Source: a bacterium (GTDB lineage Bacteria; T1Sed10-126). Taken from it: a DNA stretch of 5,099 nt. The stretch spans positions 1 through 5,099 of the forward strand of contig PWOD01000034.1 in assembly GCA_003557545.1 (NCBI GenBank). Reading direction: 5' to 3'. Positions 1-5,099 of the stretch are shown one piece after another. The position numbers were made by a program, and so were the translations under genes. Each line of letters opens with the position of its first letter. Within the stretch, counting starts at the first letter, position 1. The notes under the pieces are model-generated. The model did no database searches, had not been told where the DNA came from, and saw only the letters and a program-made list of their open reading frames with translations.

Positions 1-462
1 AAAAAGCTGATGTGGCGGCAACAATAAAAAATTTATATTTTCCGGCTGATAAAGTCGAGCGGTAAGATCCTCACAGGATGGAAAACCATTCTGAAAAAGT
101 CTGGCATTAACAAAAATATCGCTGACAAAATTCGAGATATCAATCCATGAAAGATTTTTTAAACCCGGCACAACACGACTGAAATCTGCTCGCCAGGCAT
201 GAGATGCTTCATGCAAAAGTACCAGGGCAAAATTAGCTATATTATCTAAATATTGATCATAAAAATCAGGTGATATTCTTATCTGGGTTGTTCCATCCTT
301 AACAGGCTGAATAGCAGCTGTCTGCACTGTTTTATCCCAGCATATATGACTGACATTGGAAAACATTTGAAATATGTGACGACCGTAGACACTGGATAAA
401 AACCGACAGTTTTTCAACCAATCAATCACTCGAGAAAAATCTTTGAACCGGGCGGTTTTCAT
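1..462 (-). CDS. Putative HExxH metallopeptidase-like protein (DUF2201_N-like), C-terminus outside window
   Basis: I read 154 codons without a stop from the ATG at 462-460 down to base 1, so this is an N-terminal fragment. Residues 79-92 form a hydrophobic helix ending in an HExxH motif (LLHEASHAW; H84, E85, H88), the zinc-binding and catalytic signature of zincin metallopeptidases. About 25 residues later comes NDIFVNARL (114-122). This order, HExxH followed by a D-x-x-x-N-x-x-L helix, recalls the DUF2201 N-terminal putative metallopeptidase domain (PF13203), which is usually followed by a VWA-like domain. If that architecture holds, the VWA part lies beyond base 1. No signal peptide or membrane segment is seen, so it is probably cytoplasmic. 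The start overlaps the stop of the preceding gene (TAATG) and has no good Shine-Dalgarno site of its own, which points to translational coupling. An in-frame TAA at 469-471 excludes an earlier start. Family assignment is from memory of motifs and is moderate; the coding call is strong. Confidence 0.75.
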   Translation of the reverse strand, partial: MKTARFKDFSRVIDWLKNCRFLSSVYGRHIFQMFSNVSHICWDKTVQTAAIQPVKDGTTQIRISPDFYDQYLDNIANFALVLLHEASHAWRADFSRVVPGLKNLSWIDISNFVSDIFVNARLFQNGFPSCEDLTARLYQPENINFLLLPPHQLF

Positions 463-1760
463 TAAAAATTAGGTCGGCTAATGGCAAGTTGAATCTGCTT
501 GATAGAGGGAAGCTTATCAACCACTACCGGGCGGGAAGAATGAGCCGGGTCATAAAGGCCATTTTTAACTTTCTGAAGCAGATAGGCAGCCAGCCGACTA
601 TCCGCTTTAAAATCTACCTGAGGCTTAGAATCGGGCTGAGATCTCTTCCAACTGCCCAGCAGCTCAGGCTTAACAAAAGAAAAAACAAACAGATCCCGTG
701 TATCATGCAGATAGAACCGTTTACTTAACAGATCGGGCCAATCAGATGTCGGACAAACATCGACCTTTTTAAGTGGTTTTTTAACCAACTGTTCAAGCTG
801 TTCAACCTCAGCCTCAACAATCTTATACGGACATAAAAATTTCACAGGTAGATTCCCGTAAAACAATTCTGGTCTATCCAGCTGTCGACCATTTTGTTCA
901 AGGTTGTTAAGCAATCCCAGGGGAAGATTCTGAGGATCCTCGGTAACACCCTGGTCGTCACCCCGGCGCCATATATATTTTTCAACATATCTTCCCCGAA
1001 AACTCAGTCCAACCAGGTAATCAACAGTCTTAATGGTAAAATTAGAATTTTTTACCGGTAATTCACGGGGAGCGTAGTAAAAAGGACAGTATGGACGAAA
1101 AATCTGCTTCCCCCTGGAAAAACTATTCTGTTTGTCAGACTCATACCTTAAGCGATCAAACCAGACCCTGACCGGAGAAAAATAATAAATTGAATAAAGT
1201 GGAAAAAACAGACAATCTTCCTCCCCTATTCTGTATTCAATCATTTCCAGATGATCGTTTTGAGAGTATCTCTGGTTCTCATTAAAAGAAGGCCAGCAAA
1301 TCAGGGGGAAAGCAGGATATGGTTCGGAGCGATTTTTAAAATCAGCATTCAAACTACTAACCAATCGATATTTTAATCGGGTTTTATCCGAACTTATTCC
1401 GCTGCTTTCCAGCAAATTCTGATAAAAAATATTATTACGCGGAACAGACAGCAAACGGTTACCGACAAACTCCAGTAAACTATCCACCTCAGAACCGATT
1501 ACTAACCCGTTTATTTTGCGCTGACTGTTGCCAAGATCAGATGACCTATAACTAAACTCTGTGGGGAGTAATGGATTAAGTTCAGGCGGTTGACAATCCA
1601 GGACCTTTGTTTCAATAAATTGCTCAATGAACTGATTATACGAAGCGATATCAACTAATGAACCAGCAAGAATTTTTTCTAATGATAACTCTATTTGAGT
1701 CAATTCTAAAATTTTCAAATCACCAATTTTTTCAACAATTCGATAGGTTGAAAAATTCAT
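462..1760 (-). CDS. Hypothetical protein, 432 residues, partner of MoxR ATPase and metallopeptidase-like protein
   Basis: I do not recognise a family. The protein is soluble-looking: no signal peptide, no membrane helix and no nucleotide-binding motif. An N-terminal part (1-60) is mainly helical and leucine/isoleucine-rich. The middle (145-265) is rich in aromatic residues and proline, with PYPAFPLICWPSF at 148-159 and a YCPFYYAPRELP stretch at 224-235, suggesting a beta-rich fold. A charged helix runs from about 316 to 333 (EAEVEQLEQLVKK). Six cysteines (56, 155, 183, 225, 310, 336) are scattered and form no CxxC metal site. The start is well supported by GAGGGG seven bases upstream. It lies 87 bases after the ATPase gene, and its stop overlaps the metallopeptidase start, so co-expression is likely. 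Its place between motor and presumed effector suggests an adaptor, substrate-recognition or effector subunit of the same complex; that is inference from position only. Confidence 0.85.
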   Translation of the reverse strand: MNFSTYRIVEKIGDLKILELTQIELSLEKILAGSLVDIASYNQFIEQFIETKVLDCQPPELNPLLPTEFSYRSSDLGNSQRKINGLVIGSEVDSLLEFVGNRLLSVPRNNIFYQNLLESSGISSDKTRLKYRLVSSLNADFKNRSEPYPAFPLICWPSFNENQRYSQNDHLEMIEYRIGEEDCLFFPLYSIYYFSPVRVWFDRLRYESDKQNSFSRGKQIFRPYCPFYYAPRELPVKNSNFTIKTVDYLVGLSFRGRYVEKYIWRRGDDQGVTEDPQNLPLGLLNNLEQNGRQLDRPELFYGNLPVKFLCPYKIVEAEVEQLEQLVKKPLKKVDVCPTSDWPDLLSKRFYLHDTRDLFVFSFVKPELLGSWKRSQPDSKPQVDFKADSRLAAYLLQKVKNGLYDPAHSSRPVVVDKLPSIKQIQLAISRPNF

Positions 1761-1767
1761 AAAATAA

Positions 1768-1773
1768 CCCCTC
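1768..1773 (-). promoter_or_regulatory. Shine-Dalgarno site of the 432-residue gene
   Basis: On the minus strand GAGGGG sits seven bases before the ATG at 1760-1758. It fixes this start and shows that the gene can be initiated independently of the ATPase gene upstream, although no convincing promoter or terminator is seen in the 87-base gap. Confidence 0.65.
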
Positions 1774-1847
1774 GAGAAATTTTTTCAGCTCATTAAATTT
1801 GGCACAATCTCAAACTGGTGGTTCTATTCAGTAAAAAAATTAACTTC

Positions 1848-3287
1848 TTATCGACTGATTCTTCGTTGCAATTCCAGTATCAATTCAGGGACATCCTCCA
1901 TAGCAGTTGTATCCAGACGATAGGAATTTTCAGCATCTTTTTCAATAAACCACCAGCCCAACAACAGGGCAGCAACAGATTCAGCTGCGGTTGAAGATGA
2001 CCAAAAACTCTTTAAGGCACGGGATGATTTAAAAGCCACATCGAACTCTTCCAACACCAGGCGACCACAACTAATAATACGGTTTAAACTGCTGGTTTCT
2101 ATCTCTATCCCCTGTTGATTAATCATATATCCTTTCAATAACCTGGCGAGAGATGACAGGACCGGCAGGGCGGCCCGGGGGGTGTCATATTCCAACGCTC
2201 TATTTAACAGCTCCTGACCAGTGATCTTATTAGTTTGAACGACCAACTCATCACCCAGAGCCGCGGCAAAAGCATCACAATGAGCAATTTCATAAATATG
2301 ATAAGGTAGTTGAAGACCGATCGCCTGATGTGGCAAACTATTGAACAAAAGCTTTTTAAATAGCTCTGACATTTGTCTGCTCGATTCTGGACAGCGGACA
2401 GCTATTCCAACCAGCAGATTACGCCGTAACATTCCCAACCTGCGACCATCCAGATGTTTCAATTCATCAGCATTTGTTTCAACCGACTCAAGAATAGCAG
2501 TCAGATACCGATCAACCTTTTTTCCATACTGATCAATCACCCCGGGCAAACGACAGCCTATACTGTTTAAGGCTGGTAACAAACCTGACGGTTCTTGATT
2601 GACTATGGATGGTTTGAAAAATTCTCTTCCCAGTGGAGCATCATCAGAACCAACTGCACCGATAACTTCGCAACGGTCCCGGGGCGACATATCAGCCATC
2701 GTAGGCATTTCCAGAATAAAGGCGAAACGCCCGGCCAGCGCAGAGTCAAGCGGTATAGCTCCCTGGTAATCACGCGGCGGATTCATCGCAGCAAAAATAT
2801 ATTTTAACTGATCTAATTTTTCACCCATTATTCTACGGGACCGAATAACTTCGAGCCATTTACTCTGAGTCTGTGGAGTAGCTCGAGAAATTTCATCAAC
2901 CAGAATAAACTGTTTATTCCATAGAGATATCGTGGTCGGAACATAATCCAGCTCCCCCCGGGACAGTGCATCCGGATTAGGAAATCCAATAATATCTTCA
3001 AATAAAGCCTTGGAAGCATCATAGGAGTGAAATTTTAACTGCAAAGACTGCGCCAGAACAGCAGCTAACGCAGTCTTTGCGGTTCCATGTTTGCCCACAA
3101 TCAACAGGGGATCACCGGTGATCAAACTACAAATAATCGGCAGTTCCAGGGAACTTAAGCCAACCAGACCCAGCTTCCCGAGAAATCCCCGACCAGGATT
3201 TTGACAACTATTATCTATCTTTTCATCTGGCAACCTTGCAGCTATTTCCGGGTCGGTCTGAGCAATAACAGCTTTTGTCATTGTCAT
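1848..3287 (-). CDS. MoxR-family AAA+ ATPase
   Basis: This is a MoxR-type AAA+ ATPase of 479 residues, expected to hydrolyse ATP as a ring-shaped oligomer and remodel a partner or client protein. Visible motifs, counted from the chosen start: Walker A GKHGTAKT (65-72), a MoxR-like segment DIIGFPNP...LDYVPTTI (98-120), Walker B FILVDE (127-132), sensor 1 AAMNP (N169), arginine finger in SALAGRF (R187), and a sensor-2-like GRRLGMLRR (281-289). All catalytic residues appear intact. The 190 or so residues after sensor 2 make it longer than typical MoxR proteins of 300-350 residues and close to RavA (about 500), so it probably carries an extra C-terminal domain. MoxR ATPases normally act with a VWA-domain partner encoded nearby; the metallopeptidase-like gene two places downstream is the candidate. 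Start choice: the ATG at 3287 has GAGAGG nine bases upstream. An in-frame ATG at 3311 (487 residues) has GGGAG at eleven bases and remains possible. Confidence 0.93.
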   Translation of the reverse strand: MTMTKAVIAQTDPEIAARLPDEKIDNSCQNPGRGFLGKLGLVGLSSLELPIICSLITGDPLLIVGKHGTAKTALAAVLAQSLQLKFHSYDASKALFEDIIGFPNPDALSRGELDYVPTTISLWNKQFILVDEISRATPQTQSKWLEVIRSRRIMGEKLDQLKYIFAAMNPPRDYQGAIPLDSALAGRFAFILEMPTMADMSPRDRCEVIGAVGSDDAPLGREFFKPSIVNQEPSGLLPALNSIGCRLPGVIDQYGKKVDRYLTAILESVETNADELKHLDGRRLGMLRRNLLVGIAVRCPESSRQMSELFKKLLFNSLPHQAIGLQLPYHIYEIAHCDAFAAALGDELVVQTNKITGQELLNRALEYDTPRAALPVLSSLARLLKGYMINQQGIEIETSSLNRIISCGRLVLEEFDVAFKSSRALKSFWSSSTAAESVAALLLGWWFIEKDAENSYRLDTTAMEDVPELILELQRRISR

Positions 3288-3296
3288 TTTGATCAA

Positions 3297-3302
3297 CCTC
3301 TC
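3297..3302 (-). promoter_or_regulatory. Shine-Dalgarno site deciding the MoxR start
   Basis: GAGAGG on the minus strand lies nine bases before the ATG at 3287. It favours that start over the ATG at 3311, which has only GGGAG at eleven bases, and over the ATG at 3281, which is fifteen bases away. Confidence 0.5.
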
Positions 3303-3410
3303 ATCCAACATTTAATTACTAACTCCCGCTACCCGGCTGAACTACAGCTAATTGATAATTTACACCCAAAAAGTTCGGTTCAACTGGTTACCAAGCTAAT
3401 TTTCTAGATA

Positions 3411-3440
3411 ATTAAATTATTTACAAGCAAGTTTTCTCAA
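3411..3440 (-). promoter_or_regulatory. Candidate sigma-70 promoter for the MoxR operon
   Basis: Minus-strand TTGAGA (3440-3435) and TTTAAT (3416-3411) each match five of six consensus bases and are 18 bases apart. Transcription would start near 3404, giving a leader of about 116 bases to the start at 3287. The promoter lies in the gap after the XRE gene, so the ATPase gene could be expressed apart from its regulator. The AT-rich setting makes chance matches likely. Confidence 0.45.
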
Positions 3441-3454
3441 ACTATATGTAGTTT
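3439..3454. promoter_or_regulatory. Perfect inverted repeat overlapping the -35 box, candidate operator
   Basis: AAACTATATGTAGTTT has perfect 6-base arms (AAACTA and TAGTTT) around a 4-base centre. Two bases overlap the predicted -35 box of the MoxR promoter, the position expected of a repressor site. Size and symmetry suit a dimeric XRE-type regulator, and such a protein is encoded immediately upstream. An outer, imperfect pair (GCAAG-TTTT at 3427-3435 and AAAACCTTGC at 3461-3470) brackets it, so a hairpin in the transcript at the end of the XRE gene is an alternative. Confidence 0.45.
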
Positions 3455-3458
3455 TAGC

Positions 3459-3827
3459 TTAAAACCTTGCTGAAAAAGCTTTATAGGGAGGACCGAGATT
3501 AAGATCACTTAAATGATGGTACAGTTCGGTTTCCAGTCGACCTGCCACCAGAAGTTCAAGCGGCGAGGAATCCGAACAGATGGCAGCCCCAATTTTAAGC
3601 ATCTCAATCAACCGTCCTGGATCAGGAGATTGCTGCAAAATTTCATCAAGATCATGGAGATATTCCCAATGGCTGAGACGAGGCAACGCACGAGCATTTT
3701 CCCAGCGGCTGACAGTAGCGGGAGTAACACCAACAATCTGTGCAAAAGTAGCCTGGTCTGCTTCAAGGTCTCCACGCATTTTTTTGACAAACCAGGCCCG
3801 GTATTCCTGTTCGTCCAGTTTTTCCAT
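3459..3827 (-). CDS. XRE-family helix-turn-helix DNA-binding protein
   Basis: A 122-residue protein with a Cro/C1-type helix-turn-helix at about residues 25-50 (QATFAQIVGVTPATVSRWEN followed by ARALPR). The recognition helix is TPATVSRWEN (35-44), with the W-E-N and x-x-P-R ending typical of XRE proteins. The N-terminal segment (EQEYRAWFVKKMRGDLEADQ) resembles antitoxin-like or plasmid-type XRE regulators, where it leads into helix 1. The C-terminal 70 residues are mainly helical and contain no recognised ligand domain; they may serve dimerisation. The start at ATG 3827 is chosen because AAAGG lies seven bases upstream; an in-frame GTG at 3857 would add ten residues but has no comparable site. 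It is the first gene of the leftward set, 171 bases before the ATPase start, and is likely to control it. No adjacent toxin gene is seen, so an antitoxin role is not supported. Confidence 0.88.
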   Translation of the reverse strand: MEKLDEQEYRAWFVKKMRGDLEADQATFAQIVGVTPATVSRWENARALPRLSHWEYLHDLDEILQQSPDPGRLIEMLKIGAAICSDSSPLELLVAGRLETELYHHLSDLNLGPPYKAFSARF

Positions 3828-3834
3828 GGACTTA

Positions 3835-3839
3835 CCTTT
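3835..3839 (-). promoter_or_regulatory. Shine-Dalgarno site deciding the XRE gene start
   Basis: AAAGG on the minus strand lies seven bases before the ATG at 3827-3825. It supports this start over the GTG at 3857, ten codons upstream. Confidence 0.55.
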
Positions 3840-3939
3840 CTCTTCCCCCGATAACACAGTAGTATCGAGATATTGTCGCCTGACCTGACGGTTAAACAGG
3901 ACGACACGGCAAAGCCAGAAAAATTAAAATAATAAAAGA

Positions 3940-3945
3940 ATTAAA
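3940..3945 (-). promoter_or_regulatory. Candidate -10 box of the XRE gene promoter
   Basis: Minus-strand TTTAAT matches five of six bases of the sigma-70 -10 consensus. With a start near 3933, the CRP-like palindrome would be centred at -41.5, the class II activator position where a good -35 box is not required. Other AT-rich hexamers nearby (for example TATTAT at 3934-3929) compete, so this choice is partly guided by the palindrome. Confidence 0.3.
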
Positions 3946-3951
3946 TTTTTA

Positions 3952-3993
3952 GGATGGAAAATACGATGTGAACCCCTTCACATTAAACCATCC
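3952..3993. repeat. Nested inverted repeat enclosing the CRP-like palindrome
   Basis: GGATGG (3952-3957) and CCATCC (3988-3993) are complementary and flank the inner palindrome at 3966-3983, with unequal unpaired stretches of 8 and 4 bases between. Neither strand has a T-run directly after the stem, so an intrinsic terminator is unlikely. A double operator or a structured RNA are options. Confidence 0.4.
3966..3983. promoter_or_regulatory. CRP/FNR-family binding site candidate
   Basis: ATGTGAACCCCTTCACAT is a perfect palindrome with 7-base arms and a 4-base centre. It matches TGTGA-N6-TCACA, the consensus of CRP and of related regulators such as HcpR. It lies about 140 bases before the XRE start codon and about 285 before the transporter start, so the leftward genes are the likelier target. 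Which family member binds cannot be read from the DNA. Confidence 0.6.
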
Positions 3994-4166
3994 CACTTCC
4001 CTCGATTAATAACTCAATAAATATATCAGTTTCGAATAAGTTTATCAAGGGGGTTAAAAAATTTTAAGGCCACTTACTAGCCTGACTGACGGTTGAAATA
4101 TCATGTTTGCCGAGCCCTCATAAAATCATCTAACCTATTTTTGAATTGACCTTCAACTGCAAAATC

Positions 4167-4182
4167 AGCAGGACAGTCTGCT
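4167..4182. repeat. Short inverted repeat upstream of transporter promoter
   Basis: AGCAG and CTGCT, five bases each, flank a six-base centre about 50 bases before the predicted -10 box of the transporter gene. It could be an upstream regulator site; five-base arms also arise by chance. Confidence 0.25.
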
Positions 4183-4209
4183 CTTAGCAGCTAATTTCCC
4201 AGTTATATG

Positions 4210-4238
4210 TTTTTTTCTGAAAGAATTTCAGATATAAT
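4210..4238 (+). promoter_or_regulatory. Candidate sigma-70 promoter of the MFS gene
   Basis: TATAAT at 4233-4238 is a perfect -10 box. The -35 region at the proper spacing (4210-4215) is only a T-run, so activation or weak basal activity is likely. Transcription would start near 4245, leaving a leader of about 22 bases that contains the ribosome site. Confidence 0.55.
4216..4232. promoter_or_regulatory. Palindrome in the MFS promoter spacer, candidate operator
   Basis: TCTGAAAGAATTTCAGA has perfect 7-base arms around GAA and fills the space between the -35 and -10 regions of the transporter promoter. A protein bound there would block RNA polymerase, so a repressor site is the simplest reading. 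It shares no clear core with the palindrome before the MoxR gene, so a different regulator is expected. Confidence 0.5.
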
Positions 4239-4252
4239 CATGAAAAATTTTG

Positions 4253-4260
4253 AAAGGTGA
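4253..4260 (+). promoter_or_regulatory. Shine-Dalgarno site of the MFS gene
   Basis: AAAGGTGA, an extended match to the 16S rRNA 3' end, lies six bases before the ATG at 4267. It fixes the start. Confidence 0.75.
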
Positions 4261-4266
4261 TAAAAA

Positions 4267-5099
4267 ATGATTCAAACAAAAAAATCTTTCCCCCCTTATC
4301 TGATTGTGGCGGCCGGAACACTTATCATGCTGGTGCTGGGTGTTGCATATGTTTGGGGAGTATATGTTGAACCGCTAAGAGCTGAATTTGGCTGGAGTTC
4401 TACCCAGGCTTCACTACCCTTTTCCATCTTTTTGCTTGTCTATACAATCGGCATGATCTTTGGTGGACGGCTCCAGGATAAATACGGTCCCCGTCCTATC
4501 TGTTTACTGGGAGCAATTATCTTCAGTCTTGGATATCTATTGAGTGGATTTGCCACAGGACTTTTATTCTTCTGCTTAAGCTATGGTGTTCTTGGAGGTT
4601 TGGGCACCGGTTTTGCCTATGTCACACCGGTTACTACGGTCGTCAAATGGTTCCCGGAACGCAAAGGACTTATGAGCGGAATTGTTATTTTTGGTTTTGG
4701 TGCCGGTTCCTTCATCCTCTCTCCTCTGGCGAATTTTTTAACAGAGGCATACAGCTGGCAGACTGCTTTTTTTGGCCTGGGAGTCAGCTTTTTAATCATT
4801 ACCTCACTCGCCTCACTGGCAATGGTTCTACCGGACCAAAAAACTCTCCAGATAAATGAAAAAACTAAAACCCACAAAACTGTTATGGAACTAACTCCCC
4901 TCGAAACTTTGAAAACCTCGACCTTCTGGCTGGCATGGACCGCCTGGTTTCTGGCCCTGGGGGTCGGCCTGGGCACCATGGGTCATGTTGTATATTATGC
5001 TGAAATTACCGGTGTGGAGGCAATGGCCGCCGCCTTTATTCTCAGTATAATTGCAATTTTCAATGGAATAGGTCGAGTTGGCATGGGAGCAATTTCAGA
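4267..5099 (+). CDS. MFS transporter, oxalate:formate antiporter (OFA) family, C-terminus outside window
   Basis: The first 277 codons are open to the right edge; MFS carriers of this kind have about 400-430 residues and 12 membrane helices, so roughly a third is missing. Eight hydrophobic helices can be placed at about residues 11-33, 48-68, 78-98, 100-122, 136-158, 165-188, 219-245 and 252-277. The cytoplasmic loop between helices 2 and 3 carries the MFS signature GGRLQDKYGPR (66-76). The segments YVWGVYVEPLRAEFGWS (28-44) and KWFPERKGLMSGIVIFGFG (127-145) are characteristic of OFA carriers, which exchange or import small carboxylates such as oxalate, formate, lactate or pyruvate across the inner membrane. 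The hydrophilic stretch 189-215 is the central loop between the two halves. Substrate cannot be decided: the region equivalent to the OxlT lysine of helix 11 is outside the window. It is transcribed away from the leftward genes and shows no functional tie to them. Confidence 0.92.
   Translation, partial: MIQTKKSFPPYLIVAAGTLIMLVLGVAYVWGVYVEPLRAEFGWSSTQASLPFSIFLLVYTIGMIFGGRLQDKYGPRPICLLGAIIFSLGYLLSGFATGLLFFCLSYGVLGGLGTGFAYVTPVTTVVKWFPERKGLMSGIVIFGFGAGSFILSPLANFLTEAYSWQTAFFGLGVSFLIITSLASLAMVLPDQKTLQINEKTKTHKTVMELTPLETLKTSTFWLAWTAWFLALGVGLGTMGHVVYYAEITGVEAMAAAFILSIIAIFNGIGRVGMGAIS

Follow-up and report, generated by a model that had tools for sequence, protein, structure and literature searches.

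The window analysed here is the entire 5,099-base contig C178 of a 2.15 Mb draft genome (G000), and its minus strand carries four genes in the transcription order XRE, MoxR, X and the start of H. The first encodes an XRE-type HTH protein of 122 aa (3459-3827) matching Pfam HTH_31 (E 2.4e-6), the second a MoxR AAA+ ATPase of 487 aa (1848-3311), the third a protein of 432 aa, X (462-1760), and the fourth the N-terminal part of H (1-462, 154 aa), a zincin-like metallopeptidase domain with the HExxH motif HEASH at 199-213. Since the window is the whole contig, H is cut by the contig end and its own end cannot be read inside the window. Base 462 is common to the stop codon of X (464-462) and the start codon of H (462-460). 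An inverted repeat, CTCAAACTA-N4-TAGTTTTAG (3436-3457, 89% complementary), was observed between XRE and MoxR and is a possible operator, and the start of a gene encoding an MFS transporter of the L-lactate/oxalate type (4267-5097, plus strand) diverges from the XRE gene. The open reading frames of the window are regarded as genes and not as chance reading frames because of their homology matches (AAA_3, HTH_31, and the H and X family profiles). Four same-strand reading frames, a one-base overlap of the last two, complete ATPase motifs and an HExxH motif had been described in the initial annotation, and all of them were found, with the ATPase intact from Walker A to sensor 2.

The MoxR protein matched Pfam AAA_3 (E 1.3e-11, 45 bits against a cut-off of 27), and all the features that define a MoxR AAA+ ATPase were present on the minus strand, namely Walker A GKHGTAKT (3072-3095), Walker B ILVDE (2892-2906), sensor 1 (N, 2778-2792), the Arg finger (2724-2735) and sensor 2 (R, 2439-2450); these active-site motifs were invariant across nine relatives. 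With this protein as query, about 15 close members (E < 1e-34) were obtained from 386 genomes, while generic MoxR proteins scored E > 1e-15, and in a maximum-likelihood tree the subfamily was split from generic MoxR with 100/100 support. A MoxR profile scan of the genomes of 85,000 species yielded 52 loci in Myxococcota, Goldiibacteriota, Elusimicrobiota, WOR-3, Planctomycetota, Hydrogenedentota, Kiritimatiellota and others, and these phyla were intermixed in the tree. Scanning viral contigs with the MoxR protein alone gave no relatives, and a tblastn search of plasmids and annotated phages returned nothing beyond weak fragments and one generic MoxR, encoded on an Enterococcus plasmid. On one Endomicrobia contig (L060), the subfamily MoxR is preceded by a gene resembling H, a further AAA protein of MoxR-like type and an ATPase similar to HerA/FtsK.

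The window fragment of H matched the H family profile with E 7.3e-34. The HExxH motif was invariant in 31/31 H proteins, and further conserved residues were N111/D115/N119. A profile of H relatives matched two pieces in this genome, one in the window (profile positions 10-148) and one on contig C202 (profile positions 169-432), where the C-terminal part of H (3571-4521, minus strand) contains a VWA domain with a complete MIDAS (DSSGS / GGTS / TDG). The C202 piece exits the right contig end on the minus strand, as expected for the continuation of the window H. The two contigs have no overlapping bases, and we infer their adjacency from what appear to be two halves of one gene. Through the C202 half, the window MoxR thus stands next to a VWA protein with the DxSxS...T...D MIDAS pattern of MoxR-VWA couples. 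A VWA domain had been anticipated for H, and its presence on a contig of the same genome bears this out; the opposite case, in which H would run into an unrelated domain, does not apply. After H on C202 follows a convergent gene for a cation-chloride cotransporter.

H proteins are about 450 aa long and consist of a zincin plus a VWA domain only. A predicted model of H from a Goldiibacteriota genome (pLDDT 83, pTM 0.60) was compared with known structures, and in Foldseek its C-terminus best matched the NorD chain of NorQD (E 7e-4); against VWA domains the same part gave Z of about 12 and rmsd of 2.2-3.7 over 126-159 residues. These structure matches cover the VWA half of the model, the VWA domain having filled the match list. 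For the N-terminus, the Pfam SprT-like profile gave E 0.0039 and 17.5 bits, below its gathering score of 25.6, so that H is not assigned to this family. SPRTN, a SprT-like protease, cuts DNA-bound proteins; H resembles such proteases only in this weak match of its N-terminus, and differs from them in scoring below the curated cut-off and in having a VWA domain attached. The DUF2201 profiles (Pfam PF13203 / PF09967) reached 16.0 bits against a gathering score of 23.2 with the window fragment; DUF2201_N was matched by 9/20 H relatives at E<=0.01 and DUF2201 by one, and no open literature was found on DUF2201 together with MoxR. Protease activity of H is predicted from its motif, and a dead zincin used for binding could be present instead.

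Among relatives with enough flanking sequence, H was beside the subfamily MoxR on the same strand in 56/56 cases, a count that is circular for the eight loci from which the H profile was seeded, and H was found within about 1.5 kb of generic MoxR at 0/19 loci. An X-first search in the phylum of a Myxococcota locus detected X in 10/329 genomes. In all 14 X-bearing loci inspected from two X searches, X came after MoxR and, contig permitting, before H. MoxR, homologues of the 432-residue protein and H therefore do occur together elsewhere, as had been proposed for testing. Two layouts were distinguished. In class A, to which the window belongs, the order is MoxR-X-H and the genes often overlap by 4 bases or lie < 30 bases apart; the window MoxR falls in a supported clade of 24 rows of which 22 are class A. 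Class B, a sister branch that takes in phage contigs, is H-MoxR-Xb, forms a single supported clade, and has an Xb of ~460 residues with a weak SAP domain. Three near-identical class B copies, each then followed by similar large proteins, were observed on separate contigs of one genome (AlinenSediments bin-0496; L081, L084 and L085), and these may be a recent duplication or mobile elements. In a Myxococcota genome, an extra X gene lies just upstream of a full MoxR-X-H trio (L142 917-1984, the same locus as L050).

No conserved fourth gene was found in class A, where the flanking genes vary among loci, and no XRE homologue was found near other copies of the locus in the relatives. XRE was rejected as a core component since its counterpart is absent beside every other copy; being adjacent and on the same strand, it is possibly a local regulator. 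The conserved unit is the trio MoxR-X-H, with XRE outside it. Accordingly, of the four-gene system originally suggested, the trio recurs and the XRE gene does not.

Window X had no match in Pfam, NCBIfam, PADLOC or PHROGs, and PADLOC and NCBIfam recognised no system at the window locus. A search for close relatives of window X in 59 genomes returned only X itself, and window X also stayed outside the group of 18 class A X proteins that BLAST joined. This lack of BLAST-level similarity is what speaks for regarding MoxR and H as a pair with X and XRE as unrelated bystanders. In hhalign, however, window X aligned end to end with a profile of sixteen class A X proteins (P 93.4%, E 3.7e-8); the highest P among 60 control ORFs was 0.3%. 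Each of the inspected class A loci also has X placed between MoxR and H. By these sequence comparisons window X belongs, as a divergent member, to a family that Pfam lacks, and the chance-neighbour reading, which holds for XRE, is largely refuted for X and highly improbable as an account of the locus.

Across 19 X proteins, Pfam gave no match except one chance hit (E 0.025), and the family alignment contained no stretch conserved enough for contig scanning. No invariant polar residues were found in the X family and no P-loop in any X protein, features that fit an adaptor better than an enzyme. X thus looks like a dedicated, non-enzymatic third protein travelling with MoxR and H. Comparison of class A X with class B Xb by hhalign gave P 4%, with no clear homology. 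An AlphaFold model of a Goldiibacteriota X, from the same genome as the H model and built with 25 sequences, had a mean pLDDT of 83 and a pTM of 0.80. This model had no significant Foldseek match in the PDB (best E 0.48) or in BFVD (best E 0.08) and no VIA-align match with Z >= 2 among 987 chains, and the X sequence had no significant match in the PDB. The confident model together with the absence of a structural match suggests a candidate new fold.

The trio was compared with known MoxR systems. The couples NorQ-NorD, RavA-ViaA and CbbQ-CbbO likewise combine a MoxR motor with a VWA partner (PMC9976466), but in the trio H has a zincin domain before the VWA and a third subunit is present. For NorQD, the mechanism proposed from data is that the VWA partner sits in the pore of the MoxR hexamer and binds the target through its MIDAS, while remodelling is powered by ATP hydrolysis (PMC9976466). 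MoxR-vWA ternary conflict systems also unite MoxR, a vWA protein and a distinct third protein, in four types (VMAP, iSTAND, FtsH and beta-propeller), and peptidases are sometimes attached to their vWA (PMC7159879). The trio differs from them in that X has no Pfam match, P-loop or PDB fold match, and in that H is a zincin-VWA protein without a beta-propeller and no variable effector domain was seen. The FtsH type was ruled out, as X proteins have neither a P-loop nor a Pfam match, and so was the beta-propeller type, as H is a zincin plus VWA only. VMAP-C was not among the Pfam matches of the 19 X proteins, a sequence comparison, and the X model has no PDB match that would indicate iSTAND, so these two types are not supported for the trio.

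A maturation chaperone would be in line with the role of the studied MoxR-VWA couples and with the resemblance of the H VWA domain to NorD. The trio would then insert metal into, or remodel, one host enzyme complex, much as NorQD, CbbQO or RavA-ViaA do; H would serve as adaptor and X as second adaptor, and the zincin would bind instead of cutting. A constant neighbouring substrate gene is absent, however, the flanks differing by locus, and HExxH is invariant in 31 H proteins. The presence in 10/329 genomes and the mixing of phyla in the tree also suit an accessory, transferred module, and we consider this explanation rather unlikely.

The flanks of the window locus (the MFS transporter and, on the C202 side, the cation-chloride cotransporter) are uninformative on DNA or defence, and some Goldiibacteriota loci lie among sugar or cell-wall genes. 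Possible links to DNA were observed at other copies. Five class A loci in four genomes (L042, L043, L080/L148, L059/L146 and L097/L147) adjoin a pair of a single-TRD HsdS-like and an HsdM-like gene, and at one WOR-3 locus the trio and this pair form five co-directional genes. In the HsdM-like proteins the NPPY motif is missing from its place, and motif I is missing in all but one; the pair is possibly a DNA-recognition module without methylation. In L146, a second HsdS/HsdM-like pair was seen about 5 kb upstream (5528-7490). N6_Mtase genes occur <=10 kb from four triads, where 0.47 would be expected (P about 0.001), an enrichment that was spotted after the fact. A type ISP restriction enzyme lies near one Myxococcota locus, WYL regulators adjoin several loci, and some class B loci are near ArdC-like, RadC-like, exonuclease and HerA/TraG-like genes.

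On three large viral contigs (L099, L100 and L101; 103-181 kb), MoxR and H are located close to genes for UvsX, helicase, ribonucleotide reductase or ligase. The window MoxR and its viral counterparts match phrog_1297, and the window H and the viral H proteins match phrog_1314. PHROG 1314 is labelled HNH endonuclease and matches H, with its HExxH plus VWA, over most of its length (L099, L100), and this label looks wrong. In jumbo phages of group 2.2, a MoxR AAA+ ATPase with a vWA co-chaperone bearing an N-terminal metallopeptidase has been described, and a role in virion assembly was proposed for this pair by the authors (PMC7824862). The phage pair and the window have the same two core proteins in the same domain order, with an N-terminal metallopeptidase-vWA protein next to MoxR; unlike the pair, the window locus is chromosomal and not in a jumbo phage, and has a third gene, X, between the two, which the passage on the phage pair does not mention (PMC7824862). 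The system had been put forward as undescribed, which no longer holds for the pair of MoxR and metallopeptidase-vWA and still appears to hold for the trio with X, which was not found in the literature searched. Given the phage pair and the homologues on 103-181 kb contigs, the trio might be a domesticated relative of the pair, a chaperone-protease that originally processed structural proteins. Against this, most of the neighbours identified on the three viral contigs are genes of replication or nucleotide metabolism, the stretches examined there did not yield a class A X, and the 9.6 kb examined at the window locus contained no phage gene, so that we regard such an origin as improbable. For the jumbo-phage pair itself, these data add a bacterial and a replication-linked context.

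The anatomy of the trio is secure; its biological role is inferred. We favour, with a probability of about 0.5, the reading that MoxR, X and H form one machine in which a NorQD-like motor drives a zincin-VWA protease with X as target adaptor, perhaps directed to DNA. Anatomically, the earlier idea of a protease-like VWA partner plus one more subunit is correct, H being zincin plus VWA/MIDAS and X travelling with MoxR and H. By analogy with NorQ and NorD, the VWA domain of H would be gripped by the MoxR hexamer, and ATP hydrolysis would drive H against a target bound at the MIDAS, this target being remodelled and/or cut by the zincin domain of H as a result. X would act as a target-recognition or regulatory adaptor that selects or gates the target. 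The most likely class of target would be a protein on DNA or arriving with it, as in a DNA-protein conflict possibly involving foreign DNA. A DNA-linked target is proposed because of the SAP-domain third protein, the HsdS/HsdM-like, restriction and WYL neighbours and the phage homologues among replication genes. In this reading proteolysis would be deduced from the anatomy and DNA-bound targets from the context. Stress response, complex maturation and defence had been named as candidate roles, and some weight falls on a DNA-linked conflict.

The trio is a recurrent three-gene system, patchy over many phyla of mostly uncultured bacteria, and a candidate AAA+-driven metalloprotease that may link MoxR machines to DNA recognition. 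Should H prove active, it would offer an unusual example of a protease powered by a MoxR motor by way of a VWA adaptor. A broader and more doubtful proposal is that MoxR plus zincin-VWA is the common engine of a DNA-directed, ATP-powered metalloprotease with interchangeable recognition modules (the new-fold X, the SAP-domain X, or a catalytically dead HsdM with HsdS), with which bacteria, mobile elements and large phages would contend over proteins bound to DNA. As a further observation, a DEAD/ResIII helicase-amidoligase fusion is encoded downstream of a Planctomycetota trio (L092 10972-13200), and L094 has a comparable gene after its trio.
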